Shown piece by piece: positions 17,533 to 34,428 of a DNA stretch of 49,062 bases. Below the pieces are notes generated by a model, which did not search any database, was not told the DNA's origin, and was given only the letters and a program-made list of their open reading frames with translations. The stretch spans positions 1-49,062 of the forward strand of contig CALAOR010000031.1 in NCBI GenBank assembly GCA_937889595.1. The letters run 5' to 3'. The first letter of the stretch is position 1. Each line of letters opens with the position of its first letter. Source of the DNA: an uncultured bacterium (GTDB lineage Bacteria > Oederibacteriota > PGYV01 > Palsa-1178). The position numbers and the translations under genes are program-made.

Positions 17533-17601
17533 ATGAGGGATTGTCTTAATAATGAAGGATTTTACATACTAAACCGGAATTGGGACTTTTTATGGAACTG
17601 A
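17533..17601 (+). CDS. Possible 22-residue leader ORF overlapping the EIIA-like gene
   Basis: ATG 17533 is preceded by AAAGGAG (17520-17526), a far better ribosome site than the one before the EIIA-like gene. The frame codes 22 residues ending NWDFLWN and stops at 17601, 10 bp inside the EIIA-like coding region. It could couple translation of the regulator or act as an attenuating leader peptide. It may also be chance. Confidence 0.4.
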   Translation: MRDCLNNEGFYILNRNWDFLWN

Positions 17602-18260
17602 CTGTTAAGGACGTTGTGAAACTGCTGATTATACCGCAGCCCGAGCTTAACAAGCTCGTCCAGAAGAAAGAAATACCATTCCAGAAGATACGGGATGTCC
17701 TTTACTTCAATAAACAGCAGGTTGTGGACTGGGCCTTGGGCCGCAACATGCCCATCAATATATCTAATCACACAAAAATGAGCGATTACCATATAGAATC
17801 CCTCAAACCCCTGCTTTCTGCGGACTCTTTTTATTATTCCTGCGACTTAACCGAGGCCGACTACATAGAAAAAATGACCAAACTCATCAAACTTGAAAAG
17901 ACCGTGGATACCGATATCATAGCCCAGCTTTTAAAGAGCAGGGAAGAGCTCATGAGTACCGCCATCGGCAACGGCATCAGCATACCCCATCCGCGCGTGC
18001 CTTTGATGCTCGGCAGCGACAAGCCTTTGATCAACTTTTTCTTCCCTGTAAAGCCGCTTCAACTCAAATCGCTCGACGGAAAGCCCGTGCATACGATCAT
18101 CCTTCTTATATCGCAGACCATAAAACAGCACTTGAGCCTGCTGGCGCATATCAGTTTCCTGCTTTCCAAAAAGGAGTTCCAGCAGGCCCTGGAAAAGCGG
18201 CTGCCATATGGTCAAATAACGGATCTTATAGGCACCATAGAAAACGGCAGAAATGTTTAG
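17592..18260 (+). CDS. HTH (excisionase-like) plus PTS EIIA domain regulator of Ehr cluster A
   Basis: A 222-residue protein. Residues 1-50 look like an excisionase/MerR-type HTH (ELTVKDVVKLLIIPQPELNKL...FNKQQVVDWAL). Residues 75-220 are a fructose/Ntr-type PTS EIIA domain, with the phospho-acceptor His133 in GNGISIPHPRVP. The architecture suggests a DNA-binding protein whose activity depends on phosphorylation, but no EI, HPr or EIIBC gene is in the window. The hydrogenase-like HyfB gene overlaps its end by 8 bp, tying it to cluster A. A paralogue in the same position heads cluster B. ATG 17592 has a weak ribosome site and may rely on the leader ORF. Confidence 0.82.
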   Translation: MELTVKDVVKLLIIPQPELNKLVQKKEIPFQKIRDVLYFNKQQVVDWALGRNMPINISNHTKMSDYHIESLKPLLSADSFYYSCDLTEADYIEKMTKLIKLEKTVDTDIIAQLLKSREELMSTAIGNGISIPHPRVPLMLGSDKPLINFFFPVKPLQLKSLDGKPVHTIILLISQTIKQHLSLLAHISFLLSKKEFQQALEKRLPYGQITDLIGTIENGRNV

Positions 18261-20229
18261 CTTGAGGGATATGTTTTTTATTTCCATGCTCATACAGGCC
18301 GCCTCAATACTCGCACCTGTTTTTATCGGCGGCCAGCGAAGGGCTTCCGCTCTGGCCCACATCACCCTTGTTGCCGGCCTCATCACCGGTTTTATATCCT
18401 CGTTCCTTGCCGTGTTTTTTCCCATGGCACACACTGTGGGAACGGGATTTTTCGGATTGCCGCCGGAGTATTTCAGGTTTGACCCGCTGGCTTTGTATTT
18501 CCTTTGCGTTGTCCAGGCTGTGGCCATACCCACCGCCGTATTCAGTTACTCGTACCTGGAGCATTATATCGGCGAAGGCAGGTCCGTGAAGAGCCTTTAT
18601 GTTTTCTTTGCCGGCATGCTCATTGCCACCCAGATGGTCGTGACAATCAACCACGCCATTGTATTCCTGGTATTCTGGGAAGCCACATCCATGTCGGCTT
18701 ACCTGGGTATGATATTTGAAAAGGAAAAGAAAGAGGTGCAGAAGGGGAGTTTTTATTATTTTGTAATGAACCATGTCGTGATATTTCTGCTTTACATATT
18801 TTTCTTCATCCTGCACCGGCAAACCGGCTCATGGCTTTTGAGCGATTTCCGAGTTGTCACCGGCAATTCGGGTTTGACCGCGCTTTTATTCCTGCTCGCG
18901 CTTGCTGCTTTCGGGATGAAAGCGGGCTTTATGCCGTTCCACTTTTGGCTGCCGCGGGCGCACCCAATCGCGCCATCGACGATAAGCGCTTTTCTTTCAG
19001 GCATCATAATCAAGCTCGGCATTTACGGGCTGTTCAGGGCCTTTCAGATACTCAGCCCCGCGCCTTTATGGATAGGGTGGCTCGTGCTGGTTGTATCCAT
19101 GATAACGGCCATATTCGGAGTGTGGTACGCGCTGGCCCAGCATGACATAAAGAAGCTTCTCGCTTACCATTCGGTCGAGAATATAGGCATCATCGGCATC
19201 GGGATGGGCATAGGCTTCATAGGTTCGGCTTATGCCAATATACCCATGCAGATTCTCGGGTTTGGCGGGGCGCTCCTTCACGTTCTGAACCATGCGGTTT
19301 TCAAAAGCCTTTTATTTTTGGGCAGCGGCGTGATCAACAACAACCTCGGCACACGCAATATAGAGCTCATGGGCGGAATAGTGCACAAGGCCGGTTTTTT
19401 TGTTTTCCTTTTCCTCACAGGTTCTGTGGCCATATGCGGAATACCGCCGCTGAATGGTTTTGTATCTGAATTCATAATATTCAACAGTTTTTTCACGGCT
19501 GCGCGGGAGCTGAAGGAATATTACCCGCTTATGATGCTGGTCTCGGCAGTGGGCCTGGCTTTTGTCGGCGGGCTGGCAGTGGCTTGTTTTACCAAAATAA
19601 ACGCCATAATGTTCCTGGGTACGCAGCGCGGCGAAACAAAACCTTTTCATGTCTCAGCCTATGATTATATATCGCTCGGCGTGCTGGCGCTTTTGTGCGT
19701 GGTCATCGGCTTCTGTCCGGTTCCATTCATCAATGCCGTGAATAATGTGGTATCGGGGATTGTGCCGCAGGGCGGGGCCGAACTCCTGAACATAAACTGG
19801 CTTTATATAACCGTCATCTTTACGTTATTCTCCGCGGTTGCTTTGGCAATGTACTTTATAAGCAAAGCCATGCGGAAAAAGTTCGGCTTCAGGGAGTCTG
19901 ACGCCTGGTGTTGCGGCTATAACAGGCTGGGACCGCGCATGCAGTACACAGCCTCGTCTTTCGCGGACCAGATAAACGACATAGCGCGCGCCCCGCTGGG
20001 CTACCATAAAAAGGGCAGGGCGGGCGAGGGCATCTTTCCGCCTTCATCGGGTTTTGAAAGCCACTCAGCGGACCTTGTGGACAACAGGATAATAGTGCCC
20101 GGTTACAAAAAATTCATAAGCCTTATGTCCGCGATAAGGCTGCCGGGCAATACCGACATAAGGTATTATGTCGCGTATATACTCATCATGATAATCGTTT
20201 ACTCGGTGGTGGGGTTCCTATGGCATTGA
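18253..20229 (+). CDS. HyfB/HycC-like antiporter subunit of Ehr cluster A
   Basis: A 658-residue polytopic NuoL/MrpA-type protein of the HyfB subgroup. Ion-translocation residues are in place: Glu in FWEATSMSAYLGM, and Lys in MKAGFMPFHFWLP and in GIIIKLGIYG. HDIKKLLAYHSVENIGI is the conserved mid-protein loop. The soluble C-terminal part, DAWCCGYNRLGPRMQYTASSF, is characteristic of HyfB and absent from Nuo subunits. It would translocate H+ or Na+ within the membrane arm. An alternative start, ATG 18271, exists. The gene overlaps the neighbours on both sides (8 and 10 bp). Confidence 0.92.
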   Translation: MFSLRDMFFISMLIQAASILAPVFIGGQRRASALAHITLVAGLITGFISSFLAVFFPMAHTVGTGFFGLPPEYFRFDPLALYFLCVVQAVAIPTAVFSYSYLEHYIGEGRSVKSLYVFFAGMLIATQMVVTINHAIVFLVFWEATSMSAYLGMIFEKEKKEVQKGSFYYFVMNHVVIFLLYIFFFILHRQTGSWLLSDFRVVTGNSGLTALLFLLALAAFGMKAGFMPFHFWLPRAHPIAPSTISAFLSGIIIKLGIYGLFRAFQILSPAPLWIGWLVLVVSMITAIFGVWYALAQHDIKKLLAYHSVENIGIIGIGMGIGFIGSAYANIPMQILGFGGALLHVLNHAVFKSLLFLGSGVINNNLGTRNIELMGGIVHKAGFFVFLFLTGSVAICGIPPLNGFVSEFIIFNSFFTAARELKEYYPLMMLVSAVGLAFVGGLAVACFTKINAIMFLGTQRGETKPFHVSAYDYISLGVLALLCVVIGFCPVPFINAVNNVVSGIVPQGGAELLNINWLYITVIFTLFSAVALAMYFISKAMRKKFGFRESDAWCCGYNRLGPRMQYTASSFADQINDIARAPLGYHKKGRAGEGIFPPSSGFESHSADLVDNRIIVPGYKKFISLMSAIRLPGNTDIRYYVAYILIMIIVYSVVGFLWH

Positions 20230-21146
20230 TGAACATATTCGAGGGCCTGGCCTCGCTTTTCTTCGTGCTGCTGTTCGCGCCGCTTTTTGCCGGGCTGGTG
20301 AACAAACAGAAGGCCATGATGACAGGACGCGTGGGAGCGCCCGTTTGGCAGCCTTATTACGACCTTTTCAAACTGTTCCGCAAGGAAACCATAAGAGCAA
20401 AAAGCGCCTCCTTTATAAGCGGTCTCTCGCCCGCGATAAACTTTGCTGCAGTAATCATAGCGGCGTCAATGCTGCCGGTGTGCAACGCGCACCCGCTTAT
20501 CAGTTTCAAAGGTGACATCATACTTTTCGCTTACATACTCGGTACGGCCAGGTTCTTCCAGATACTCGCGGCAATGGACATAGGCTCCTCATTCGAGGGG
20601 ATGGGCGCGTCCAGGGAGGCTTCATTCGCGATATTTGTGGAGCCCATATTCTTTTTCACGCTTGGTTCGATCGCCTTTATAACCGGGTTCACCTCCATCA
20701 GCGACATTTACCGCTCCATCGCCATGGACAGGATGTCTTACACCGTTTTTATAGTGGTATGTTCCATATCTTTTTTCATACTCGCGGTGACAGAGTGCTC
20801 GCGAATGCCTGTGGACGACCCGAACACGCACCTGGAGCTGACCATGATACACGAGGTCATGATACTGGATAATTCCGGACAGGACCTGTTTTTTTACCAG
20901 TACTCGGGCAATATCAAGCTGCTTATATATATCGTGCTTGAGACGGCGTTTTATTACCCCCTCGGCGCGGGATTGACGGCGGTCGGGGTCACTATTTTCG
21001 CGCTGAACATATTATTTGTTTCCTTTGTGCTGGCCGGGGTGGAGACCGTGACCAGCCGTTTCAAACTGAAAGACATGCCGCATTACCTTTTATTCGCGGC
21101 CGCCATAGGCATATTAAATCTGCTGATATTTACCTTCAACAAGTGA
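20220..21146 (+). CDS. HyfC/HycD-like (NuoH-type) membrane anchor subunit of Ehr cluster A
   Basis: A 308-residue membrane protein with about eight helices. The family signature VDDPNTHLELTMIHEVMILD and the motif DIGSSFEGMGASREASFA mark it as the HycD/NuoH subunit that connects the peripheral electron-transfer arm to the membrane arm. PYYDLFKLFRKE after the first helix is the usual cytoplasmic loop. The start at 20220 overlaps the HyfB stop. Confidence 0.93.
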   Translation: MALMNIFEGLASLFFVLLFAPLFAGLVNKQKAMMTGRVGAPVWQPYYDLFKLFRKETIRAKSASFISGLSPAINFAAVIIAASMLPVCNAHPLISFKGDIILFAYILGTARFFQILAAMDIGSSFEGMGASREASFAIFVEPIFFFTLGSIAFITGFTSISDIYRSIAMDRMSYTVFIVVCSISFFILAVTECSRMPVDDPNTHLELTMIHEVMILDNSGQDLFFYQYSGNIKLLIYIVLETAFYYPLGAGLTAVGVTIFALNILFVSFVLAGVETVTSRFKLKDMPHYLLFAAAIGILNLLIFTFNK

Positions 21147-21156
21147 GGGCCCTATA

Positions 21157-21789
21157 ATGGAAAATGTGCTGAGCATCCTGTTCTGCCTGTCCCTGCTTTA
21201 CCTGGCGCTTACATCCAGGGTCAAGCACTGCGTCAATGTGCTGCAGGCGCAGGGGATAATACTTGCTGTGATAAACACCTTGCCGCTTTTTCACCATTTC
21301 ACTCTTGGGGAGATTATCCTTCCCGCGGCTTTGCTGGGGATAAAGGGCGTGCTCATACCGTTCTACATAAGGAAGATAATCACGGACCTGGATATTAAGG
21401 ATCCTATAGAACCGACCATACAGCAGTTTACTTTCATCATGCTCGTTATAACCCTCATGTCCGCCGTATTTGTGGCCTCTGGCATACTGGCGAAAAGCAC
21501 GGAAATAAACATAATACCTTTTGCCAGCGGCTTCTCGGCCATAATAACCGGCATACTTGTCATAATCTTCAGGAAAAAACTGTTGGTCCATGTCATGGGA
21601 TTTTTAGCCATGGAAAACGGCATATTCCTTTTTGGCTCGGCGATCGCTTTCAAGCTGCCCGTCATAATAGAACTTGGCATGCTGCTGGATATATTTGTGG
21701 TGGTGTTCCTGATGGGTATCGCCCTGAATAAAATAAGCACGACCCTTTCGGGTTTTGAAGCCGCGCAGTTAAGGAGGCTTAAGGACTGA
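21157..21789 (+). CDS. HyfE-like (NuoK-type) membrane subunit of Ehr cluster A
   Basis: A 210-residue protein with about six membrane helices, as in HyfE. The motif VHVMGFLAMENGIFLFG holds the conserved membrane Glu of the NuoK family, and IELGMLLDIFVVVFLMGIALNKI is the usual end. It probably takes part in ion translocation. It starts 11 bp after the HyfC gene and its last base overlaps the HyfF start (TGATG). Confidence 0.88.
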   Translation: MENVLSILFCLSLLYLALTSRVKHCVNVLQAQGIILAVINTLPLFHHFTLGEIILPAALLGIKGVLIPFYIRKIITDLDIKDPIEPTIQQFTFIMLVITLMSAVFVASGILAKSTEINIIPFASGFSAIITGILVIIFRKKLLVHVMGFLAMENGIFLFGSAIAFKLPVIIELGMLLDIFVVVFLMGIALNKISTTLSGFEAAQLRRLKD

Positions 21790-23234
21790 TGGCGATAATC
21801 TTTTCACTTACTGGGCTAATACTTGCCTCGGGGGCGGCCTGCTGGTTCGTCAAAGACCTGAAAGCGCAGTATTTCATATCCCTGTTCGCGGCAGGGGCCC
21901 ACTTGTTGTTTTCCTTCGCCCTTTTCACTGGCATTTGCGCGCCGCAGCTTGCTTTTTTGAGCCTGGACCCTTTAAGCCGGTTGTTCCTCATAGTGGTTTC
22001 AAACGTCTACTTTTGGGTTGTGCTGGTATCTTACCAGTATCTAAAGCAGTCAACGGCAAAAGGCTCCGGTAAGAAGTACTACTTCATATTCTTAAACGTA
22101 TACCTACTGGCCAACAGCGCGGCCATACTTTCCAATAATTTCGCCATGTACTGGGTGGTCTCCGAAATGACGACGCTTTCCGTGGCGCCGCTCATATACT
22201 ACCTGCGCGACGAGGAGTCGCTCGAAGCCATGTGGAAATACCTGTTCCTGGTATCTGTCGGCATAGCCGCCGTTTTCATAGGCATCATATTCCTGGCGCT
22301 CTCCGCGACGGGCACGGTTGTGGAAGGCAAGCAGCTTTTCTTCACGGATTTCATAAGGCACGCGGCGCTTTTAAACCCGGTGTGGCTCAAGGCGAGTTTC
22401 ATATTTATTTTCGTGGGAATGAGCACGAAGATAGGCATAGCGCCCATGCATTCGGCCGACGTGGACGCCACAAGCACGTCGCCCGGACCGATCGCGGCCC
22501 TTATGTCCGGCTCATTGCGCGTTACCGCGCTTGTGGGATTGATGAGGATACTTCAGATAGTCAGGGGTACTTCGGTATATGAGTTCGCGCGGTTCATCAT
22601 GATAATAGGGGGGCTGCTTTCCATATTTACGGCTTTTGTTTTTATATTCAGGGTGAGAAATTACAAGAGGCTGTTCGCTTACTCCAGTGTGGAACATCTG
22701 GGGCTGATTGTCCTGGGTGTGGCGACCGGCGGGCTGGCTTTTATAGGGGCCATGTACCACATAGTCTACAATTCGATCAATAAGGTTGTGATATTCTTTT
22801 GCGCCGGTTCCATAAACCAAAAATACGGTACGGTTGACTCGGAAAAGGTAAGCTCGCTGCTGGAAAACATGCCCTGGACAGGATGGATATTCATGTTCTC
22901 GTTCCTGGCAATCTCTGCTGTCCCGCCATTCGGCATATTTTTCAGCGAGCTTAAGGTTTTCGAGGGCATGCTTTTTTCCAACAGGCCCTGGGTGCTTTTT
23001 GCCGTGCTCTTCTTCATGCTTTTTATATTCATAAACATGGGCCGCGTGGTGCTCCAGATGCTCTATAAAAAGGACGAGAATTCAAAGGTGGTAAAAGAGA
23101 GGGAAAGGGTCAATATCACGCACGCAGTCTCGCTTATACTGCTTGTGATGCTCATCGCGCTGGCGCTGTTTACGCCAAACGTTTTAAAGTCCACCATTAT
23201 TGATATCGCGAAAGACTTTGGTGCAGCCTCATGA
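21789..23234 (+). CDS. HyfF-like (NuoN/MrpD-type) antiporter subunit of Ehr cluster A
   Basis: A 481-residue polytopic antiporter-like subunit. Conserved features are the Glu in WVVSEMTTLSVAPLIY, the Lys in STKIGIAPMH, and YKRLFAYSSVEHLGLI. In place of the usual HTWLPDA(H/Y)SEAPSP loop it reads HSADVDATSTSP, so the Trp, Leu, Pro and Glu positions have changed; the cluster B paralogue keeps the standard form. The large-subunit gene overlaps its end by ATGA. Confidence 0.9.
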   Translation: MAIIFSLTGLILASGAACWFVKDLKAQYFISLFAAGAHLLFSFALFTGICAPQLAFLSLDPLSRLFLIVVSNVYFWVVLVSYQYLKQSTAKGSGKKYYFIFLNVYLLANSAAILSNNFAMYWVVSEMTTLSVAPLIYYLRDEESLEAMWKYLFLVSVGIAAVFIGIIFLALSATGTVVEGKQLFFTDFIRHAALLNPVWLKASFIFIFVGMSTKIGIAPMHSADVDATSTSPGPIAALMSGSLRVTALVGLMRILQIVRGTSVYEFARFIMIIGGLLSIFTAFVFIFRVRNYKRLFAYSSVEHLGLIVLGVATGGLAFIGAMYHIVYNSINKVVIFFCAGSINQKYGTVDSEKVSSLLENMPWTGWIFMFSFLAISAVPPFGIFFSELKVFEGMLFSNRPWVLFAVLFFMLFIFINMGRVVLQMLYKKDENSKVVKERERVNITHAVSLILLVMLIALALFTPNVLKSTIIDIAKDFGAAS

Positions 23235-24709
23235 ACACATTACAAGTATCCAACGGACAGGCGTACCTGTTGAAAGATATACCCGTTGTTAAAAAGGACA
23301 TTTTCTTCGGTGATATAATTGCCGGGCTGAATAAGGGTATGAAAATAAGCGCGCTTTTTCCGGCAGACAGGCGGGATAAGTCGGCCCTGATCTGCGTGCT
23401 CGCGGACCCGGCGTCGAGTTCATTCCGCCTTTCAAAGTGTGTTTTTGAAAGAGGCAAACTTTCATTTGAAAGCCTGGCAAACGCTTTCCCGCAGGCGGCC
23501 GGGCTGGAAAACGAGCTTGCCGAGGATAGCGGGTATGTGCCGCTTAACCACCCGTGGCCGCGGCCGGTAAGGAAACAAGATATAATGCCGGACGGCTCAA
23601 CGTATAATTTTTATAAGCTCCTGGGCGACGAGGTGCACGAAGTAGCTGTCGGCCCCATACACGCAGGCGTCATAGAACCGGGGCATTTCAGGTTCCAGTG
23701 CCACGGCGAATATATATTCAACCTTGAAATAAGCCTTGGCTACCAGAAACGCGGGGTGGAAGAACTTATGATAAGTTCCGGGCCGGGCAGGAGGATCGTC
23801 CTGGCCGAATCAGCCGCGGGCGATACGGTTATGGGCCACGCGCTCGCGAACGCCGGGGTAGTGGAAGCTTTATCAGGCGCAAATGTCCCGTTACGCGCGC
23901 AGGTCATAAGGGCCATGGCCGAGGAACTTGAAAGGATAGCCATGCACTTAAGCGGCCTGGGAGGTGTGGCAAACGACATTGGTTTCGCCATAGCCGCGTC
24001 CTCGTACGGCAGGTTAAGGACGTTGATGATCAATTCGCTCGGCGCGCTCTCAGGCTCAAGGTTCGGCAGGGGCCTGACCGCGTACGGCGGTGTGAATTTT
24101 GATTTTGACCGGGATGTCATAAATATTATACTTGCAAACCTGGAAACCGTAAGCCGGGATGTCGCGGCCATAAACAAATGCCTGTTCTCATCCGGGGGCT
24201 CCATGCAGAGGTTTGAAAAAACAGGCATAGTGCCGAAGCACGCGGCCAGGGACCTTGCGTTTTCCGGGCTAACGGCGCGCGCATGCGGCATAGAAACGGA
24301 CACCAGGATAGATTTCCCGTACGGCGCTTACAAATATTATCCGGTCTCGCTCATGACCATGCCCGAAGGCGATGTCTTTGCCAGGACAAAACTGCGCACA
24401 CTGGAAATAGAGGAATCATTGCGTTTCCTTTTCGAACAGATAGAAACGGTGCCGGGTGGGGAATTAAAGTCAAAATGCGGCCCCATGGCCGGCAGCAGCG
24501 GAGTGGTCTCGGTTGTGGAAGGCTGGAGGGGAGAGATACTCCACATAGCCCTGACAGATGAAAAAGGCGAACTAAGCCAGTACAAGATAAAGGATCCGTC
24601 ATTTAACAATTGGTACGCGCTGAGTATGGCGGTGAGGAACGCGGCGATCTCGGACTTCCCGCTGTGCAATAAAAGCTTTGACCTGTCGTATGCGGGGCAT
24701 GATCTGTAG
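23231..24709 (+). CDS. HyfG/HycE-like large subunit without Ni-Fe ligands, Ehr cluster A
   Basis: A 492-residue protein: residues 1-125 are NuoC-like and 126-492 are the hydrogenase-large-subunit/NuoD-like domain (VHEVAVGPIHAGVIEPGHFRF). The first Ni-Fe cysteine motif, CxxC in group 4 hydrogenases, is here ESAAGDTV with Ala196 and Thr199. The second, near the C-terminus, reads SFDLSYAG with Ser486 and Gly489. All four ligands are therefore gone, so the protein cannot bind the usual Ni-Fe centre. This matches energy-converting hydrogenase-related (Ehr) complexes, whose substrate is not established. It overlaps HyfF by 4 bp, while the small-subunit gene follows only after a 344-bp repeat-rich gap. 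Confidence 0.92.
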   Translation: MNTLQVSNGQAYLLKDIPVVKKDIFFGDIIAGLNKGMKISALFPADRRDKSALICVLADPASSSFRLSKCVFERGKLSFESLANAFPQAAGLENELAEDSGYVPLNHPWPRPVRKQDIMPDGSTYNFYKLLGDEVHEVAVGPIHAGVIEPGHFRFQCHGEYIFNLEISLGYQKRGVEELMISSGPGRRIVLAESAAGDTVMGHALANAGVVEALSGANVPLRAQVIRAMAEELERIAMHLSGLGGVANDIGFAIAASSYGRLRTLMINSLGALSGSRFGRGLTAYGGVNFDFDRDVINIILANLETVSRDVAAINKCLFSSGGSMQRFEKTGIVPKHAARDLAFSGLTARACGIETDTRIDFPYGAYKYYPVSLMTMPEGDVFARTKLRTLEIEESLRFLFEQIETVPGGELKSKCGPMAGSSGVVSVVEGWRGEILHIALTDEKGELSQYKIKDPSFNNWYALSMAVRNAAISDFPLCNKSFDLSYAGHDL

Positions 24710-24712
24710 GAA

Positions 24713-25030
24713 CTTAAGGCTGTTCGTGGGTTGTAATGTTCGAGATTTGAAAGTCGAGATTTGATCAGCAAGCTTGGAAGGTATTATAGAAGGGATGCCG
24801 GGCCGGTTTTTGTCCTTGTAGGGGCGGACTCACGCTACGCGTGACTTCGCTATGTGTCCGCCCGCTGAGGGCTTTTGATTTTGAACTGTCTTTGTTTGCA
24901 AAGTTGGATTTTTAAATTTGTAGAGAGGGGGCTTGCCCCCTCTCACAGCAGGATCTTAAGGATGTTGGTGGGTCGTAATGTTCGAGATTCGAAAGTCGAG
25001 AGTTGATCAGCACGCTTGGAAGGTATTATA
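24713..25030. repeat. Two direct copies of a TTCGAGATTTGAAAGTCGAG element with hairpins between
   Basis: Two copies of about 76 bp lie at 24713-24788 and 24954-25030, both running from CTTAAGG through GTCGAGA and TTGATCAGCA to CTTGGAAGGTATTATA. The core has a 7-base rhythm (TTCGAGA TTTGAAA GTCGAGA TTTGATC). Between them are two hairpins: GGGCGGAC/GTCCGCCC at 24822-24863 and the perfect palindrome GAGAGGGGGC-TT-GCCCCCTCTC at 24923-24944. The block separates the large- and small-subunit genes; no gene is visible in it. An inverted copy lies at 25820. Confidence 0.85.
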
Positions 25031-25053
25031 TTAGAACACTTGGAGGTTTTAGT

Positions 25054-25812
25054 TTGTCCATATTTGATTCAATTAAGCTTAGGATCCTACAGGGAGACCC
25101 GATCGTCCACGACGTCCGCGGCGCAAAACCGCCGGCGCGTTTCCGCGCTTTCCCCGAGGTGGACCCAAAGGCCTGCGCGCAGGGGTGCGACGCCTGCGTT
25201 AAGGTTTGCCCCACTAACGCTATTACCCTAAACCCGCTTAAAATAGACCTTGGCAAATGCGTTTTCTGCCCGGCATGCGAAATTGCGTGCCCAAAAAAAG
25301 CAATTCATTTTACGAATAATTACATAATGGCCTCCACGCGCAGGGAAGATCTGTTAGTCCCCGGCTTCGCGCAATCAATAACACCTGAAAAAGCCTCAGA
25401 AAAAATCCGTAATTATTTCGGCCGTTCCCTTAAGTTAAGGCAAGTCTCCGCAGGAGGCTGCAACGGCTGCGAACTGGAACTTAACGCCTTAAACAACGTA
25501 AACTTCGACATGGGCCGCTTCGGCATAGAATTCACCGCGAGCCCAAGGCACGCCGACGGCATAGTGATAACAGGCCCGATAACAAAGGCCATGAAAAACG
25601 CGCTTGATATCTGCTATGAAGCCGTTCCAAACCCGAAGATAGTTATCCTGACAGGAAGCTGCGCCATTTCGGGCGGAGTGTTCCAGGAGTCAAAGGAAAC
25701 AGACAGGAAGTTCATGGAAGAGAACAAGGTTGACCTGTACGTCCCGGGCTGCCCGCCGCATCCGCTGACGTTTATTTGCGGGGTTTTGGATTTTCTGGGG
25801 AGAAAAGGATGA
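25054..25812 (+). CDS. Fused 2[4Fe-4S] ferredoxin / HyfI-NuoB-like small subunit, Ehr cluster A
   Basis: A 252-residue protein. The N-terminal third is a two-cluster ferredoxin (HyfH/HycF-like): C41, C45, C48 and C52, then C69, C72, C75 and C79. The rest is the NuoB/hydrogenase small subunit. It keeps the four ligands of the proximal cluster: C136 and C139 in GGCNGCE, C203 in GSCAISGG, C233 in PGCPPHP. It should carry electrons from a soluble donor to the large subunit. The start is TTG 25054 behind GGAGG (25042-25046). This gives the same N-terminus as the cluster B paralogue (SIFDSIKLR against MFDILRIRL). The gene is flanked by inverted copies of one repeat. Confidence 0.88.
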   Translation: MSIFDSIKLRILQGDPIVHDVRGAKPPARFRAFPEVDPKACAQGCDACVKVCPTNAITLNPLKIDLGKCVFCPACEIACPKKAIHFTNNYIMASTRREDLLVPGFAQSITPEKASEKIRNYFGRSLKLRQVSAGGCNGCELELNALNNVNFDMGRFGIEFTASPRHADGIVITGPITKAMKNALDICYEAVPNPKIVILTGSCAISGGVFQESKETDRKFMEENKVDLYVPGCPPHPLTFICGVLDFLGRKG

Positions 25813-25819
25813 TAGCGCG

Positions 25820-26083: not shown

Positions 26084-26112
26084 TTGACAAAACTTCCACC
26101 AAGTTGTATTAT
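26084..26112 (+). promoter_or_regulatory. Promoter of Ehr cluster B
   Basis: TTGACA (26084-26089) and TATTAT (26107-26112) are 17 bp apart, the same layout as the cluster A promoter. Transcription would start near 26119. Confidence 0.75.
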
Positions 26113-26119
26113 AACGTTC

Positions 26120-26861: not shown

Positions 26862-28846
26862 ATATCTTCTTCCTCGGGGTGGTGGTCATCCTTGGGGGGG
26901 GAGCACTGTCGTTGTGTTTTTGTGAAAGGAATAAGGCTTCCGTTGTTATTATTTTTACCGCTTTAGGGGCGGGTTTGACCTCGTTTTTCTCGCTTAATAT
27001 ACTTGCCACGGGCATAGCCCGGGAATTGACCGTAAATTTCAGCGCGCCCATTGGCACGGCTGTTTTCAGGGCTGATGCCCTGTCGGCATTCTTCATCCTT
27101 ATAATTTCTGTCATGGGGTTTCTTACAACCATCTACGCCAAGGGGTATATGTCCGCTTACCTCGGGCAGGGGCGCGCTTTTGGGGCCCACTTTCTTTTCC
27201 TTCCTATACTTATCCTTTCCATGATGATGGTGGCTGTATCTTCGCATGTCATAGTGTTCCTTATCATGTGGGAAATAATGTCGCTCTCGTCGTTTTTTCT
27301 TATGACTTTTGAGAACGAGAAAAAGGACGTGCTTGAGGCGGGGATATACTACATAACGGCCATGCACATATGCGTGGCTTTGCTGGTGGCTGGATTTTCC
27401 GTGCTTTCGCTTTTGTCCGGCAGCCTTGATTTTGCCTCCTTTAAACCCGCGCTTTCCGCGGCCAAACCGCTTGCGGCTATTGCCGTGTTCGCCGCGCTTT
27501 TTATCGGGTTCGCTATAAAGGCCGGGCTCATGCCTTTTCATACCTGGCTGCCTTTGGCGCACCCGGCAGCGCCGAGCCATGTTTCGGCCATTATGTCCGG
27601 GGTAATGATAAAGCTCGGGATTTACGGGATTTTGCGGCTCATTACTTTTTACACCTTCATAGACTCCCGCGTCTCTTTCGCGGTTTTGGCTTTCGGCCTT
27701 ATTACCGGGCTGTTCGGCATATATTTTGCCATGGCCCAGCGGGATATAAAGCGGCTGCTGGCTTACAGCAGTATTGAGAATATAGGCATCATGACCACGG
27801 GCATCGGGCTGGGGCTTATAGGCTTGAGCTTCGGGAATAATTACATGGCTTATCTTGGTTTCGCGGGCGCGTTCCTGCACCTGCTTAACCACTCGATATT
27901 CAAGGAACTCATGTTCTTCGGCGCGGGGAGCGTGTACCTGAAAACCCACACCCGGGATATGGAGCATCTTGGAGGGCTCGCAAAGCAGATGCCTTATACA
28001 GCCGCATTTTTTTTCGTGGGTTCGGCCGCCATATCCGCGCTTCCGCCTTTGAACGGGTTTATAGGGGAGCTGGTGCTTTACCTTGCCATGTTCTCGGGCA
28101 TTACCCTGAAATTCGTACCTGCCGTAATGTCTGGCGTTTTTTCCGTAGCTGTCTTAAGCTTTACAGGCGCCATGGCTGTTGTGGTTTTTACAAAGATGTA
28201 CAGCACCGTGTTTTCCGGGACACCGAGGAACAACAGCATTACGATAAAGACGGGTGAGTATAAATTCATGACCTTTGCCATGGCCGCGGCCGTTTTGTTC
28301 TGCGTTGTTATCGGCGTATTACCGCAGTATTTTTTCCGCCTGGCGTCAATCCCAGCCTCTTTGATGATGGCGCTCTCTGCCGCGGCTGTGCCTGATACAT
28401 CCGGGGTTGTGAACGCGCTTCAGATATTGTCGGTATTATTCATTTCCGCAGTCATTGCCGCGGCTGCGCTTTACCTTGTAAAAAAAGCCCTGTTAAAGGA
28501 CAAAACCGCGAAAGCTTCCACCTGGGGCTGCGGCTATCAGGCGCCCTCAAGCAGGATACAGTACACCAGCTCGTCATTCGCGGCCACGTTCCTGAAACCC
28601 ATAGGGCCGTTCATGCGTCTTGAAGAGGATACAGTGAACCCGGAAGGGTTGTTCCCGCGCAGAGCCTCATACGCGTCAAAATCCCGCGACTTGATAGCGG
28701 CATTCGCCATCAAGCCCGCCTTAAGGCTGATTGGTTTTTGCATGAGGGCTTTCTCGTGGATACAAAACGGGAACACACAGCAGTATATATTGTACGGGCT
28801 CGTATTCCTGATCATTTCGATAGTATGGGCAATGGGGGCGAAATGA
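26858..28846 (+). CDS. HyfB/HycC-like antiporter subunit of Ehr cluster B
   Basis: A 662-residue paralogue of the subunit at 18253. Key residues are the Glu in MWEIMSLSSFFLMTFENEKK, the Lys in FAIKAGLMPFHTWLPLAHP and MIKLGIYGILR, and the conserved loop RDIKRLLAYSSIENIGI. The HyfB-type C-terminal segment STWGCGYQAPSSRIQYTSSSF is present. It should be an ion-translocating membrane subunit. Confidence 0.92.
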   Translation: MNIFFLGVVVILGGGALSLCFCERNKASVVIIFTALGAGLTSFFSLNILATGIARELTVNFSAPIGTAVFRADALSAFFILIISVMGFLTTIYAKGYMSAYLGQGRAFGAHFLFLPILILSMMMVAVSSHVIVFLIMWEIMSLSSFFLMTFENEKKDVLEAGIYYITAMHICVALLVAGFSVLSLLSGSLDFASFKPALSAAKPLAAIAVFAALFIGFAIKAGLMPFHTWLPLAHPAAPSHVSAIMSGVMIKLGIYGILRLITFYTFIDSRVSFAVLAFGLITGLFGIYFAMAQRDIKRLLAYSSIENIGIMTTGIGLGLIGLSFGNNYMAYLGFAGAFLHLLNHSIFKELMFFGAGSVYLKTHTRDMEHLGGLAKQMPYTAAFFFVGSAAISALPPLNGFIGELVLYLAMFSGITLKFVPAVMSGVFSVAVLSFTGAMAVVVFTKMYSTVFSGTPRNNSITIKTGEYKFMTFAMAAAVLFCVVIGVLPQYFFRLASIPASLMMALSAAAVPDTSGVVNALQILSVLFISAVIAAAALYLVKKALLKDKTAKASTWGCGYQAPSSRIQYTSSSFAATFLKPIGPFMRLEEDTVNPEGLFPRRASYASKSRDLIAAFAIKPALRLIGFCMRAFSWIQNGNTQQYILYGLVFLIISIVWAMGAK

Positions 28847-29766
28847 CAACCATAACAGCCAACATACTGTTCATCCTCATCATGCCGTTCCTTTTTATCG
28901 GTGTTATCAACCGCGTCAAGTCTTTTTGGGCCGGCAGGCAGGGGCCTTCCGTTATACAGCCTTTCTTTGATTTTTTCCGTCTCCTGAAAAAGGGCGTTGT
29001 GTTAAGCCGGGCAACCACCGCGCTTTTCTATTGGGCGCCCATTGCCGCGTTCATTGCTGTGCTGGCGGCCGCTTTTATCGCACCCATGGCAGGGGGCCGT
29101 TCCATACTTGCTTTTCAGGGCGACATGATAGTTTTCATATATTTGCTCGGGGCCGCCAAGTTTGTCAATATAGCCTCGGCAATGGAGACCGGGTCCAGTT
29201 TTGAGGGAATGGGGGCGGCGCGTGAGGCTGCTTTCACATCGCTCATCGAACCGGCATTCTTTATAATAATGGGGGCCTCTGCCGCAGCTTCCGGTGTGAT
29301 GGATTTTTCCGGGATAAGGGCCATGGCCGCCAACCATGAGGCCTCCGGGGTGCTTGCCGCCGTATTGTGCGGCTCCGCGCTTTTTATTATGCTGCTCACC
29401 GAAGGCTCGCGCGTGCCGGTGGACGACCCGAACACCCACCTGGAGCTTACAATGATACACGAGGTCATGGTGCTTGACAATTCCGGGCCGGATCTGGCGC
29501 TCATAAATTATTCGTCAGCCCTGAAGATGTTCGTTATCGCGTCTGTCATGGCAAATTTTCTGATTCCGGCCGGATTAAATCCGGCTTTGGCCGGCGCCCT
29601 TTTTGCCGCTGTCATTCTGCTCTCGGCCGTCATAGCCGGGTGCGTCGAGTCCCTTATGGCGCGCCTGCGCATGTCCCACGTGCCGCAATTTGTATTTTTC
29701 ACCGTTTCCATCGCCATAGTTGCTTTTTCCATCGTGCTCCTGAAGATGAGCGGGGGGCTGAAATGA
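28843..29766 (+). CDS. HyfC/HycD-like (NuoH-type) membrane anchor subunit of Ehr cluster B
   Basis: A 307-residue membrane protein with the HycD signature VDDPNTHLELTMIHEVMVLD and METGSSFEGMGAAREAAF. The start is ATG 28843, which overlaps the HyfB stop (ATGA) and is preceded by GGGGGCG. A longer in-frame reading back to 28738 adds only residues from within the HyfB gene and is not credible. It aligns end to end with the 308-residue cluster A paralogue. Confidence 0.93.
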   Translation: MTTITANILFILIMPFLFIGVINRVKSFWAGRQGPSVIQPFFDFFRLLKKGVVLSRATTALFYWAPIAAFIAVLAAAFIAPMAGGRSILAFQGDMIVFIYLLGAAKFVNIASAMETGSSFEGMGAAREAAFTSLIEPAFFIIMGASAAASGVMDFSGIRAMAANHEASGVLAAVLCGSALFIMLLTEGSRVPVDDPNTHLELTMIHEVMVLDNSGPDLALINYSSALKMFVIASVMANFLIPAGLNPALAGALFAAVILLSAVIAGCVESLMARLRMSHVPQFVFFTVSIAIVAFSIVLLKMSGGLK

Positions 29767-30398
29767 CGGAGGTTCTCATAGCCATATTCGGGATAACCAT
29801 GCTTTATGTTTCATCCACATCCAGGGTGGAAGCATACATCAGAGTGCTCGCCGTGCAGGGCGTGATATTATTTCTGATGGTACTGCTCGACCACGCCCAT
29901 CTGGAAGTTTTAAACCTCGTGTTCCTCGGCGCCGAGACGCTGCTTTTTAAGGCGATAATCATTCCGGTGTTCCTCATGTTCACCGTGAGGAAAAATAACA
30001 TACAAAGGGAAGCGGAGCCTTTCATGCCGAGTTTTTACTCCGTACTTATCACCACAGCCATATTCGCCTTTGGTTTTCTCATAGCGTTCTGGGCGTCTTC
30101 GAACGCCTCCAATGTCAGGCCGCTGTATTTCGGCGTCTCAATCGCTACCATAATAACGGGGCTATTCATAATCATAAGCCGCAAGAAAATAATAACCCAT
30201 GTCATGGGTTATATAATGATAGAGAACGGTATTTTCATGCTGGCCATGTCCGTGGTAGGCGAGATGCCAATGATAGTCAACCTCGGAGTGCTTCTGGATC
30301 TTTTCGCGGCCATATACCTGCTCGGTCTTTTTGTGACAAAAATAAACTCCACCTTTGACGAACTGCACATAGATTCGTTAACTAATCTGAGGGATTGA
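29763..30398 (+). CDS. HyfE-like (NuoK-type) membrane subunit of Ehr cluster B
   Basis: A 211-residue membrane protein with VMGYIMIENGIFMLAMS (conserved membrane Glu) and VNLGVLLDLFAAIYLLGLFVTKI. The start is ATG 29763, an ATGA overlap with the HyfC stop; a longer in-frame reading from 29640 lies inside HyfC. It is the counterpart of the gene at 21157. Confidence 0.88.
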   Translation: MTEVLIAIFGITMLYVSSTSRVEAYIRVLAVQGVILFLMVLLDHAHLEVLNLVFLGAETLLFKAIIIPVFLMFTVRKNNIQREAEPFMPSFYSVLITTAIFAFGFLIAFWASSNASNVRPLYFGVSIATIITGLFIIISRKKIITHVMGYIMIENGIFMLAMSVVGEMPMIVNLGVLLDLFAAIYLLGLFVTKINSTFDELHIDSLTNLRD

Positions 30399-30401
30399 AC
30401 C

Positions 30402-31811
30402 ATGATACCCATAATACTTTTCCTCGCGCCGGCCCTGGCCATGGCGCTTTTTATATTCAGGTCAAAAAAGTTGAACGCCGTGGTTATTTGCCTTTACTCG
30501 TTCACTCACCTGGCGTGTTCGGTCACGCTGCTTGTGCACCCCGCGTCATATGGCCGGTATTTCCAGGTTGAGCCTTTAAACCTGTTTTTCCTTGTGGTGT
30601 TGAGCGTTGTGCTGGCCGGCATTTCCGTATACAATGCGGATTTTACCCTTAAATCCGCTGTCCCGGCCCGGAAATCCACTTATTATTCGGCTGCAGTATT
30701 GGTGTTCTCGGCCGCTATCAGCGGAGTTGTGCTCGGCGCGAATCTGGGCATGATGTGGGTCTGCCTGGAAACCACCACTATAACCGGCGCGTATCTCATC
30801 TATTATAAAACAGGGAAAGAGCCGCTTGAGGCGGCGTGGAAATACATGTTCATCTGCTCCATAGGCATCGCTTTCGCTTTTGTGGGATTGATATTCCTGT
30901 CGCTGGCTTTTACCGGCAGCCAGCCATCGTTGTTTTTTACGGACATAAACGCGCACGCCCCGGTATTCAATAAATTCTGGCTGAAAATGTCCTTTGTTTT
31001 CATGGCCATAGGTTTCGGCACAAAGGCGGGACTCGCGCCGGTACATACCTGGCTGCCCGATGCCTATTCCGAGGCGCCGTCGCCTGTATCGGCACTGCTC
31101 TCGGCCGCGCTTTTAAATTCGGAACTGCTGATAATAATCAGGATATTGAAGATAATGAAGATAGCCGATCTTGGCGGGTTTGCCTCGGCGTTCCTTATAA
31201 CCATGGGAGTCCTGTCAGTTTTTGTGGCGGCAGTTTATATAATAAGGGTGGGCAATTATAAGAGGATGCTGGCGTATTCGTCCATAGAGAACATGGGGCT
31301 TATAACCATAAGCGCGGCAATAGGCGGCCCGGCCGCATTCGCCGCGGTGCTGCATATAGCCGCGCACGCTTTTTCAAAAGCGTCGCTTTTTATGACGTCG
31401 GGCAACATACTCAAAAGGTATTATACAAGGGAAATAAACGGCGTGACAGGCCTGCTCAAAGCCGACCCCAAGGCGGGATGGTCGTGGATAGCGGGTTTTA
31501 TCCTGCTGTGCGGCATACCGCCGTCGCCGATATTTTTAAGCGAATTCATAATGATAAGGACCATGTTCGGGCGCGGAATGTGGTGGCTGGCAGTGCCGGT
31601 AATGCTTCTGGTCACGATAGTGATCTACGGCATGGCGTCAACGATGTTTAAAATGAGTTTCGGCAACCCGCAAAAGGGCATATCGCAGGAAAGGTTCAAT
31701 ATACTCAACTACGCGGGCCAGTTTGTTTTTATAGCGGTACTTTGTCTGCTGGGCATTTACATGCCGAAGGCGATAAGCGATTTGATAACCGCGGCGGCTT
31801 CGTTAATGTAG
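30402..31811 (+). CDS. HyfF-like (NuoN/MrpD-type) antiporter subunit of Ehr cluster B
   Basis: A 469-residue antiporter-like subunit with the full family loop GTKAGLAPVHTWLPDA and SEAPSPVSALLS, the Glu in WVCLETTTITGAYLIYY, and YKRMLAYSSIENMGLI. Its paralogue in cluster A has lost this loop's consensus. Unlike in cluster A, the large-subunit gene does not overlap but follows after 168 bp that hold a large hairpin. Confidence 0.92.
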   Translation: MIPIILFLAPALAMALFIFRSKKLNAVVICLYSFTHLACSVTLLVHPASYGRYFQVEPLNLFFLVVLSVVLAGISVYNADFTLKSAVPARKSTYYSAAVLVFSAAISGVVLGANLGMMWVCLETTTITGAYLIYYKTGKEPLEAAWKYMFICSIGIAFAFVGLIFLSLAFTGSQPSLFFTDINAHAPVFNKFWLKMSFVFMAIGFGTKAGLAPVHTWLPDAYSEAPSPVSALLSAALLNSELLIIIRILKIMKIADLGGFASAFLITMGVLSVFVAAVYIIRVGNYKRMLAYSSIENMGLITISAAIGGPAAFAAVLHIAAHAFSKASLFMTSGNILKRYYTREINGVTGLLKADPKAGWSWIAGFILLCGIPPSPIFLSEFIMIRTMFGRGMWWLAVPVMLLVTIVIYGMASTMFKMSFGNPQKGISQERFNILNYAGQFVFIAVLCLLGIYMPKAISDLITAAASLM

Positions 31812-31833
31812 GAAATGTTTTACCTTCGTAATT

Positions 31834-31947
31834 TGTAGAGAGGGGGCTTGCCCCCTCTCACCGCCAGCTTTATATGCGGGCCCTGCGATTAAGGCCCGCT
31901 GGGAGAGGGGGACAAGCCCCCTCTCTACAGGTTTTTGTTTTTTTTGT
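31834..31947 (+). terminator. Three-hairpin element with T-run between HyfF and HyfG of cluster B
   Basis: TGTAGAGAGGGGGCTTG (from 31834) is complementary to CAAGCCCCCTCTCTACA (to 31929), giving arms of about 26 bp. Each arm is also a GAGAGGGGG/CCCCCTCTC palindrome, and the centre holds GCGGGCC/GGCCCGC (31876-31899). The right arm is followed by GGTTTTTGTTTTTTTTG. This could terminate or attenuate transcription between the membrane and catalytic genes, or be a mobile palindromic element. Confidence 0.7.
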
Positions 31948-31979
31948 TACATAGAACATATTTTGGTTAAGGAGCACTA

Positions 31980-33458
31980 ATGGGCTTTAAGGTCATCAAA
32001 AACAACAGGACAGTCAAACTAAAAGACATGGCTGAAATGCCTTTGGATACTCTTCGGCATCGTATTATATCCTCATGCCTTAAAGGCCGGCGGCTTATCG
32101 GTTTTTTTGCCGGGCCTCACGAAAAACTTTACGTCATGCTCGCGGACGACGCGGGTTCCACCATACTTACGGCCTGCGCCCCGCTTAACTCTATAAAACA
32201 CTACAGGTCGCTTACGCCTGACCTGCCGCAGGCTCATATGTTTGAGCGCGAATTTTACGAGGAAACCGGAATAGAGCCCATCGGCCATCCCTGGCTTAAA
32301 GGCGTGCGGTTCCCGGAAGACCGGCCTGACTTAAACTCAACTATGGAATCATACAAATTTTTCAAAATGGAAGGCGAGGAAGTGCATGAAGTCGCTGTCG
32401 GGCCCGTGCATGCCGGGATCATAGAACCCGGGCATTTCAGGTTCATGTGCCATGGCGAGCGTGTTTACCACCTGGAAATACAGCTTGGTTACCAGCACCG
32501 CGGAGTCGAAGGGCTTTTTGCAAAACACGGAAACAAACTCATGCCGCATCTTGCGGAGTCAATAACCGGCGATACGGTCATTGGCCACGCGCAGGCTTAC
32601 TGCGGTGTTATAGAAGCCCTGTCAGGCACTTTAGTTACGCGGCGCGCGCACGCCATAAGGGGCGCGGCCCTGGAACTTGAGAGGGCGGCCATGCATACGG
32701 GCGATCTGTCGGCAATCTGCGGGGATGTGGCTTATCTGATCGGAAATTCAGTTTTTGGGGCCAACAGGACCACGATAATAAACACATCCATGCTCTTAAC
32801 CGGCAGCAGGTTCGGCCGCGGGCTGCTTAAGCCCGGCGGGGTCGTGTCGGACATAAACGCGGAAACAGCCGCGAAGGTGAAGAAAAACATCTCGGCCGCG
32901 TATGAAAATATAAGGATAATGGCCCATGAAATGTTCTCTGCGTCGAGTGTGCTTTCCAGGATACAGCAGACAGGCGTCCTTCAAAAACAAACGGTCATGG
33001 AAGCCGGAGTGATCGGGTTTGCGGCGCGCGCGTCAGGAGTCGCGCTTGATTCGAGGGCCGACCACCCATATGGCATTTACAACTACATGCCCATACACAA
33101 GCACACCATGGACTCGGGCGACGTCTTTGCCAGGAGCTATTTGCGGTTCCTTGAAATACAGCAGTCGGTTGAACTGGTAAAAGAACTGATGGATAACCTG
33201 CCGCCGGGCGCCATTTGGAAAGAGCCTGCCGCACTTGAACCGGATTCATTTTCGGTTTCAATGGCCGAAGGCTGGCGGGGGGCGATAGTGCACGCGGCAA
33301 TCACGGATAAAAAAGGGAGCATATGCAGGTATAAGATCAAGGATCCGTCGTTTAACAACTGGTACGGGCTCGCGCTGTCGCTGAGAAATGAAGGGATCTC
33401 GGATTTTCCGGTGATCAACAAGAGCTTCAACCTGTCGTACTGCGGGAACGATCTTTAG
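31980..33458 (+). CDS. HyfG/HycE-like large subunit without Ni-Fe ligands, Ehr cluster B
   Basis: A 492-residue paralogue of the gene at 23231, of exactly the same length. GPVHAGIIEPGHFRF and YQHRGVEGLF are conserved. The first Ni-Fe motif reads ESITGDTV (Thr196, Thr199) and the second SFNLSYCG (Ser486, Gly489). A cysteine at 488 is out of register by one residue. It is therefore an Ehr-type large subunit, not a hydrogenase. AAGGAG at 31969 precedes ATG 31980. Confidence 0.92.
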   Translation: MGFKVIKNNRTVKLKDMAEMPLDTLRHRIISSCLKGRRLIGFFAGPHEKLYVMLADDAGSTILTACAPLNSIKHYRSLTPDLPQAHMFEREFYEETGIEPIGHPWLKGVRFPEDRPDLNSTMESYKFFKMEGEEVHEVAVGPVHAGIIEPGHFRFMCHGERVYHLEIQLGYQHRGVEGLFAKHGNKLMPHLAESITGDTVIGHAQAYCGVIEALSGTLVTRRAHAIRGAALELERAAMHTGDLSAICGDVAYLIGNSVFGANRTTIINTSMLLTGSRFGRGLLKPGGVVSDINAETAAKVKKNISAAYENIRIMAHEMFSASSVLSRIQQTGVLQKQTVMEAGVIGFAARASGVALDSRADHPYGIYNYMPIHKHTMDSGDVFARSYLRFLEIQQSVELVKELMDNLPPGAIWKEPAALEPDSFSVSMAEGWRGAIVHAAITDKKGSICRYKIKDPSFNNWYGLALSLRNEGISDFPVINKSFNLSYCGNDL

Positions 33459-33464
33459 CGGGAA

Positions 33465-33485
33465 TTCGGAGTTCGGAATTCGGAG
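33465..33485. repeat. TTCGGAR heptanucleotide repeat, copy 2
   Basis: Three 7-bp units (TTCGGAG, TTCGGAA, TTCGGAG) directly follow the large-subunit stop. The same heptamer stands behind the dehydrogenase gene at 4942. Confidence 0.7.
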
Positions 33486-33515
33486 TGCGGGTTTTGATTG
33501 AAAAGTTATGGGTTT

Positions 33516-33625
33516 CGTAGAGAGGCTGCTTGCTGCCTCTCTGACGCGGGCTTTACAAAACGCAGGACCATGCAAACGGTCGTTCCAAAGGCCGACGATG
33601 AGCGGCAGCAAGCAGCCGCTCTACG
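33516..33625. repeat. Paired hairpin element between HyfG and HyfI of cluster B
   Basis: CGTAGAGAGGCTGCTTGCTGCC (from 33516) is complementary, with slight mismatch, to GGCAGCAAGCAGCCGCTCTACG (to 33625). Each arm folds on itself as well. It is built like the element at 31834 but with GGCTGCTTGC in the arms instead of GGGGGCTTGC. It sits in the same intergenic position as the cluster A repeats. Confidence 0.75.
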
Positions 33626-33672
33626 GGATGTTGTGGGGAACGAAGTGCTTTGAAATTGAATGAGGAGAACAT

Positions 33673-34428
33673 ATGTTTGACATTTTAAGGATCAGGTTAC
33701 GGCAGGGGTACCAGGCCATACCTGACGTTAAGAAAGCCCAGATCATAACTCAGTTCCGCGGTTTGCCGGAGGTTTCGGTTGAACAGGTAAACGCTGATTT
33801 TACCGCGGATACGGTATGCCCGGTCAATGCCATTTCCAAGGCGCCGTTTTCCCTGGATATGGGAAAGTGCGTGTTTTGCGGTGACTGCGTAAGGGCGTGT
33901 AAAAATAATGAAATTAAATTCACCAATTACCACAAGACAGCCGTTGACTCCCCTGAAAAACTGGTTGTGACAAAGAATAAAGGAAAACAATTTCTTGAAA
34001 AAGAAGCAATTAAGTCACGTGCGGATATCAAAAAAATATTCGGAAGGTCCTTAAAACTGAGGCAGGTTTCAGCCGGCGGGTGCAATGGCTGCGAGCTTGA
34101 ACTTGCTGCCTGCGGAAACGTGAATTTTGATATGGGAAGGTTTGGAATAGATTTTGCCGCGTCCCCAAGGCACGCTGACGGTATAGTAATAACAGGGCCG
34201 ATAACACAAAATATGGCCCCGGCGCTGCTTGATACGTATGACGCAATACCTGATCCGAAAATAATAATACTCGCTGGTTCCTGCGCAATATCAGGCGGGG
34301 TTTTCGCGGATTCAAACGCCCTAAACAGGGAGTTCCTGAATAATCATAAGGTTGATTTGTACGTGCCGGGGTGCCCGATCCACCCTCTTACGTTTATAAA
34401 TGGGGTGTTGTCGCTGATAGGGGTGTGA
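33673..34428 (+). CDS. Fused ferredoxin / HyfI-NuoB-like small subunit with one ferredoxin cluster lost, Ehr cluster B
   Basis: A 251-residue paralogue of the gene at 25054. The NuoB-like part keeps its proximal-cluster ligands: C137 and C140 in GGCNGCE, then GSCAISGG and PGCPIHP. In the ferredoxin part the second site is complete (C66, C69, C72, C76). The first retains only C49: the segment corresponding to CAQGCDACVKVCP in cluster A reads NADFTADTVCP. One [4Fe-4S] cluster is therefore missing. GAGGAG at 33662 fixes the start. Confidence 0.9.
   Translation: MFDILRIRLRQGYQAIPDVKKAQIITQFRGLPEVSVEQVNADFTADTVCPVNAISKAPFSLDMGKCVFCGDCVRACKNNEIKFTNYHKTAVDSPEKLVVTKNKGKQFLEKEAIKSRADIKKIFGRSLKLRQVSAGGCNGCELELAACGNVNFDMGRFGIDFAASPRHADGIVITGPITQNMAPALLDTYDAIPDPKIIILAGSCAISGGVFADSNALNREFLNNHKVDLYVPGCPIHPLTFINGVLSLIGV

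Follow-up and report, generated by a model that had tools for sequence, protein, structure and literature searches.

In a 49,062-nt stretch of DNA from an uncultured bacterium of the Oederibacteriota (contig CALAOR010000031.1, here C31, of the 3.42-Mb, 99% complete host assembly; hereafter the window), two operons for energy-converting hydrogenase-related (Ehr) complexes are each headed by a gene for a small protein, HTH-EIIA, that joins a helix-turn-helix (HTH) domain to an EIIA domain of the phosphotransferase system (PTS). The pairing of this gene with hyfB is conserved well beyond the host, and HTH-EIIA is probably a local regulator of Ehr expression that responds to phosphorylation by the PTS.

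Ehr operons headed by HTH-EIIA genes

A preliminary description of the window had reported the same seven-gene order twice between positions 17592 and 34428, namely HTH-EIIA, hyfB, hyfC, hyfE, hyfF, hyfG and a ferredoxin-hyfI fusion, and this is borne out by our analysis. The two operons, designated A and B, stand in tandem, and the HTH-EIIA genes overlap hyfB, as had also been described, by 8 nt in A (18253-18260) and by 4 nt, ATGA, in B (26858-26861). Since the seven-gene order recurs in three phyla, it is not due to chance. The genes are:

17592-18260, + strand: HTH-EIIA A, putative regulator, 222 aa, phospho-His133 (PF00359, E 5.7e-19; HTH_17, E 5.4e-5)
18253-20229, + strand: hyfB_A, antiporter-like membrane subunit (PF00361; NCBIfam hydrogenase 4 subunit B, 2.7e-139, below cut-off)
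20220-21146, + strand: hyfC_A, NuoH-like membrane subunit (PF00146, E 2.7e-30)
21157-21789, + strand: hyfE_A, small membrane subunit (no Pfam match; named from position and homology among the loci)
21789-23234, + strand: hyfF_A, antiporter-like membrane subunit (PF00361, E 6.6e-34)
23231-24709, + strand: hyfG_A, large subunit without the NiFe cysteines (PF00346; DPSFNNW replaces DPCxxC)
25054-25812, + strand: hyfI_A, two [4Fe-4S] ferredoxin motifs (CAQGCDACVKVCP and CVFCPACEIACP) fused to a NuoB-like small subunit (PF01058, Fer4 families); start most likely TTG at 25054
26181-26861, + strand: HTH-EIIA B, putative regulator, 226 aa, phospho-His134 (PF00359, E 5.6e-23; HTH_17, E 3.1e-4)
26858-28846, + strand: hyfB_B, antiporter-like membrane subunit (PF00361, E 1.1e-54)
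28843-29766, + strand: hyfC_B, NuoH-like membrane subunit (PF00146, E 1.5e-26; ATGA overlap with hyfB_B)
29763-30398, + strand: hyfE_B, small membrane subunit (homology among the loci; ATGA overlap with hyfC_B)
30402-31811, + strand: hyfF_B, antiporter-like membrane subunit (BLASTP to F subunits of related clusters)
31980-33458, + strand: hyfG_B, large subunit without the NiFe cysteines (motif reading)
33673-34428, + strand: hyfI_B, NuoB-like subunit with one complete [4Fe-4S] motif (the first motif is short of three Cys)

The operons encode the subunits expected of an Ehr complex, namely antiporter-like and NuoH-like membrane subunits as well as NuoB/NuoD-like peripheral subunits (PF00361, PF00146, PF00346, PF01058). 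HyfG A and HyfG B are both devoid of the two CxxC pairs with which NiFe hydrogenases bind their metals: neither motif L1 (RxCGxC) nor motif L2 (DPCxxC) of the [NiFe] group 4 enzymes is present. RxCGxC is likewise absent from the HyfG of all Ehr relatives read, and proteins with an intact C-terminus carry D[PA]S instead of DPC. Among solved structures, formate hydrogenlyase subunit 5 (7z0s, best), membrane-bound hydrogenase and 49-kDa-type subunits of complex I are nearest to HyfG. Judged by subunit make-up and by loss of the active site, as HyfG has no NiFe cysteines, both operons encode Ehr complexes and not hydrogenases.

Control of hyc and hyf in E. coli is exerted by FhlA/HyfR and not by a PTS-domain regulator. 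Formate hydrogenlyase and hydrogenase 4 of this organism share the HyfB, C, E, F, G and I-like subunits with the window operons, which differ in a HyfG devoid of NiFe cysteines and in the PTS-domain protein at their head; a formate dehydrogenase gene was not recognised among the window open reading frames (ORFs) read. Energy-converting hydrogenase-related complexes were reportedly treated by Marreiros et al. in 2013 and are described in PMC6349859. The window operons agree with them in the group-4-hydrogenase subunit set, the antiporter-like subunits and a HyfG without Ni/Fe ligands, and are set apart by the leading HTH-EIIA gene and by the ferredoxin fused to HyfI.

The Ehr complexes would pump ions and take their electrons from ferredoxin. 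Reduced ferredoxin as donor fits the ferredoxin domain of HyfI and the 2-oxoacid:ferredoxin oxidoreductase genes, assigned by reading of the sequence, that adjoin the HTH-EIIA/Ehr pair in locus L091. HyfI_A keeps both [4Fe-4S] motifs, whereas HyfI_B is missing three of the four cysteines of the first, a loss common to its relatives in genomes G042, G043 and G040. Hence, the A and B complexes may differ in electron intake. For the earlier suggestion that the two copies may serve different electron donors or ions, this loss of Fe-S ligands is the only sequence hint of a difference between the complexes that we found.

The C-terminal domain of HTH-EIIA is an EIIA domain of the PtsN/Fru/Mtl type according to Pfam, a PDB profile search and a Foldseek search with the AlphaFold model (3urr, 1a6j), and the N-terminal 50 residues resemble HTH_17. 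The phospho-histidine named in the preliminary description, His133 in A and His134 in B, is indeed kept and aligns with that of a PtsN of solved structure; together with the partner His and the Arg it places the domain in PF00359. Fold and active-site Arg, His and His are thus those of PtsN/EIIA-Ntr and EIIA-Fru/Mtl. Unlike PtsN, the EIIA domain sits here behind an HTH in an energy-conservation operon, its scores against the PtsN equivalog TIGR01419 (39.3 and 50.0 bits) are under the curated cut-off of 138.7, and the host encodes a canonical PtsN besides. Transcription factors under PTS control are known, namely MtlR, LicR and LevR with PRD/EIIA domains and HTH-PtsN of chlamydiae. HTH-EIIA resembles these in the joining of an EIIA to a DNA-binding domain and departs from them in consisting of one HTH and one EIIA, without PRDs, and in its apparent target, a redox ion pump in place of sugar genes.

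Conservation of the HTH-EIIA/hyfB pairing

The pairing is not unique to the host genome, but recurs in at least three phyla, in which 59 of 74 high-scoring HTH-EIIA genes lie directly before hyfB. All nine HTH-EIIA fusions of the host phylum (45 genomes) are found in this position, and a scan of genome contigs recovered the pair also in lake metagenome-assembled genomes (MAGs) titled Lentisphaeria and in one further MAG. In the phylum of the Lentisphaeria MAG (388 genomes), 54 high-scoring genes are distributed over 47 genomes, 43 of which also encode an Ehr-type HyfG; by our own count, 39 of these genes directly precede hyfB, 12 are apart and 3 lie at contig ends or are unclear. In the third phylum (82 genomes), 11 out of 11 high-scoring members (the first being L091/L096) stand before hyfB and three weaker ones do not. 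As to whether the fusion occurs mostly away from Ehr/Hyf clusters, the answer is divided: the architecture as such is general, common off Ehr in the second phylum, with a lower-scoring class mostly away from it, but one clade is strongly tied to Ehr.

In a tree of HTH-EIIA proteins (a quick tree with long branches flagged), all 53 Ehr-linked members fall into this single clade of 70 (SH-aLRT 98), and the label of Ehr linkage needs 5 changes on the tree as compared to a mean of 36 in shuffles. Moreover, pairwise distances of HTH-EIIA and HyfB correlate (r = 0.75, 49 pairs; 0 of 2000 permutations as high), which fits co-inheritance. Counted from HyfG, HTH-EIIA is upstream in 37/53 cases at 650 bits or more and in 3/9 cases between 620 and 650 bits. 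A report of the HTH-EIIA/Ehr pairing was not found in the open literature searched, most subscription journals lying outside it; Ehr, EIIA and EIIA-type regulators are already known, and it is their combination as a dedicated conserved unit that was not encountered there.

Several neighbourhoods deviate in detail. A short ORF before hyfB (L206:5912-6127) looks like the truncated HTH part of HTH-EIIA, perhaps a decayed copy. ArsR-like genes of two other host-phylum genomes (L078:11166-11543, L077:1111-1443) immediately precede hyfB or the HTH-EIIA gene. A SulP-like transporter gene of G039 (L073:11260-12936) overlaps the HTH-EIIA gene, and in G030 a beta-carbonic-anhydrase-like gene (L076:15435-16094) is located upstream. 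Of the orphan HTH-EIIA genes L137, L146 and L150, the first two are near KefB-like antiporter genes, and L146 and L150 are near an NhaD/ArsB-like permease gene with CBS and EIIA genes; these neighbourhoods are another link of EIIA to ion transport.

Proposed mode of control by HTH-EIIA

A scan of positions 17000-36000 (19 kb) for sigma-70-like promoters returned 34 matches, and the two best sites both stand just upstream of an HTH-EIIA gene:

17400-17428, + strand: putative sigma-70-type promoter of operon A, TTGACA-17-TATAAT (12/12 consensus, best of 34; consensus match alone)
26084-26112, + strand: putative sigma-70-type promoter of operon B, TTGACA-17-TATTAT (11/12 consensus, second best of 34)

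TTGACA sites comparable to that of operon B are present upstream in G044, G043 and G042. The -35 box of HTH-EIIA genes in relatives is often embedded in a direct repeat, GACATTTnnGGACA, which represents a candidate operator and is sometimes accompanied by an inverted copy near the start. This box is found upstream of 29/59 clade members (0.7 expected from shuffles) and of 17/37 members outside the clade (0.6 expected), whereas 11/396 of the remaining long ORFs of these loci have it upstream. Likewise, a second GAC follows 10-11 bp on at 15 of 39 TTGACA sites upstream of clade members, as compared to 32 of 645 in the loci overall, those sites included. The box counts overstate the case somewhat, because the regular expression was chosen after some sequences had been seen and close relatives are included; the excess upstream of HTH-EIIA genes is nevertheless large. 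As the candidate operator coincides with the -35 box of the HTH-EIIA gene itself, it suggests that HTH-EIIA may be autoregulated in the relatives. The box stands at the HTH-EIIA promoter in several genomes; its other genomic matches are mostly intragenic and look like chance, and a wide regulon was therefore rejected. An operator common to the A and B copies of the host phylum was sought as well and not found, the promoter elements alone being recurrent.

The phosphorylation chain is complete in the host: EI and HPr, for which a search elsewhere in the genome had been advised, are encoded together with HprK, PtsN and EIIABCD-Man. Contig C34, on which ORFs outside the library scan were named by reading of their sequences, carries in a row rpoN, hpf, ptsN, hprK, the mannose-type EIIA, EIIB, EIIC and EIID, HPr and EI. 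EI is present in 48 of the 50 genomes with HTH-EIIA, the exceptions being G043 (91% complete) and G026 (65% complete).

We propose that each HTH-EIIA protein acts as local transcription regulator of the Ehr operon that it heads. The N-terminal excisionase/MerR-like HTH would bind the operon's own sigma-70 promoter, and the C-terminal EIIA domain would receive a phosphoryl group on its invariant His along the route PEP (phosphoenolpyruvate), EI, HPr, EIIA, so that DNA binding would follow the PEP/pyruvate and sugar-flux state. The output would be how much the cell makes of Ehr, a complex-I-like oxidoreductase that would pump ions and be fed by ferredoxin. As to the sign of control, our guess is repression that is relieved once EIIA is dephosphorylated, i.e. 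at high sugar flux and with much reduced ferredoxin, because the candidate operator of the relatives overlaps the -35 box. The earlier suggestion that PEP/sugar status sets expression or activity of the complex thus stands insofar as the link between HTH-EIIA and Ehr is conserved and probably functional and the PTS chain is full; of its two branches, expression is favoured over activity, albeit unproven, on account of the HTH domain, the promoters and the recurrent candidate operator in relatives.

Several observations weigh against such a regulator. As to the proposed excisionase-like domain, 12 of 13 proteins of alignment A2 match HTH_17 (E <= 0.001, best 2.2e-16), but the window proteins themselves stay below the Pfam cut-off of 27 bits (23.8 for A, 21.4 for B), and AlphaFold gave a moderate model for HTH-EIIA A (pLDDT 72), in which the EIIA part is usable and the HTH is of low confidence. 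No candidate operator was found ahead of either window copy or in A-type relatives, and in the third phylum it is present in only one or two of ten loci read. Unlinked Ehr operons in genomes with an orphan HTH-EIIA gene also lack the box in those upstream regions that could be read, and regulation of such operons in trans via the box was discarded. Finally, twelve high-scoring members of the second phylum are apart from Ehr, many Ehr clusters have no HTH-EIIA gene (0/20 for HyfG of 580-620 bits), and shared species history contributes to the co-divergence of HTH-EIIA and HyfB.

The main rival, though unlikely, is that EIIA acts on the Ehr complex itself, docking in a phosphorylation-dependent manner on a membrane or peripheral subunit to adjust pumping, with the HTH being secondary. 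Action of PtsN-type EIIA on ion transporters is known, as EIIA-Ntr acts on TrkA or KdpD in E. coli, and provides a precedent. PMC3162934 mentions that Kdp is under the control of PTS-Ntr. The translational overlap with hyfB and the co-divergence with HyfB would likewise fit a physical partner; however, the HTH match is kept in 12 of the 13 members scanned, an operator-like box recurs at the gene's own promoter in relatives, and this box is shared by related orphan members that lack an adjoining Ehr operon.

We regard it as somewhat less probable still that HTH-EIIA is a repressor or autoregulator whose EIIA serves only as a module for dimerisation or for small molecules and stays unphosphorylated in the cell. 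Six odd members lack the equivalents of Arg117 and Thr123, so that part of the family, at least, has moved away from PTS chemistry; both His are kept in the aligned examples, and these proteins come from genes flanked by hyfB on either side or are closely related to proteins that do. (Ehr operons ordered hyfB-HTH-EIIA-hyfB occur in L141, L183, L190, L191, L195 and L210.) Yet, every other Ehr-linked member has the full active site: the phospho-His (His133) and the second His (His180) are present in 53/53 Ehr-linked proteins of the tree and the catalytic Arg (Arg117) in 47/47 outside the six. The distribution of EI and the HPr and HprK of the host also speak against this alternative. Simple hitchhiking of the HTH-EIIA gene with Ehr, lacking any functional tie, would be in line with the frequent fusions elsewhere and the twelve members apart from Ehr, but is very improbable given the immediate upstream position in three phyla within one clade and A-type operons that are 60-70% identical throughout between the host and MAGs of another phylum. 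A local PTS-switched regulator is favoured over these alternatives in view of the HTH, the promoter of the gene itself, the box that relatives carry and a phospho-site that is kept intact.

Origin of the tandem and significance

The preliminary description had implied a duplication of A and B that gene trees might date. The tree comparison indicates old, separate lineages instead, and identity between the copies is only 30% (EIIA) and 44% (HyfG), each being nearer to its own type in other genomes. A recent tandem duplication in this lineage, suggested by the same gene order side by side, therefore has next to no chance of being correct and is ruled out by identities, tree and synteny: EIIA of A and B is 60% and 39% identical, respectively, to the corresponding copies in G045, as compared to 30% between A and B, and G042 and G044 hold B without A.

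Operon A shares 60% (EIIA) to ~70% (HyfI, HyfE) identity with A-type operons of the Lentisphaeria MAGs and 50-65% with that of G039, which belongs to the same order as the host. Operon B has matches in G044 (same genus), G043 and G042, all of the host's family. In G042, B directly follows TolC-RND genes, and in G044 it occupies the same neighbourhood, in both cases without A; between the TolC-RND genes and B of the window stand A and a pilB-like gene. The occurrence of B without A in these relatives makes it probable that this lineage acquired A by insertion beside B, possibly by transfer. G045 has a tandem of its own in reverse order, B then A, each with HTH-EIIA.

The neighbourhood that leads to Ehr B in G044 and G042 corresponds to positions 5154-15360 of the window, with genes for the HppA pyrophosphatase, YchF, TolC and RND proteins. 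An 81-nt direct repeat lies between hyfG_A and hyfI_A (24708-25030), with inverted copies after hyfI_A (25866-25908), and a 35-nt element, GAGAGGGGGCTTGCCCCCTCTC, is intergenic in both operons (24915-24949 and 31830-31864). Three tandem LacI-type regulator genes, two of them very similar, are located downstream of aspS (39045-42491), and another at 1814-2824. The window ends carry low-complexity repeat ORFs (27-1505, 47881-48435); a TQT-repeat protein is encoded also on C34 (L037).

Taken together, HTH-EIIA proteins could well be minimal PTS-switched transcription factors of wide distribution, a family whose members read a tandem GACA-type half-site with a 10-bp period. One clade would long have been a dedicated Ehr regulator in three or more phyla and would directly couple PEP/sugar status to a ferredoxin-fed ion pump. 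Ehr complexes are present in many uncultured anaerobes and are poorly understood as pumps, and a conserved PTS-type regulator would tell when the cell wants them, pointing to fermentative sugar flux and reduced ferredoxin as the context. The pairing also provides a candidate operator box that can be tested, and the small two-domain regulator should be easy to express. If the proposed mechanism is true, transcription control by the PTS would extend from sugar genes to energy conservation.

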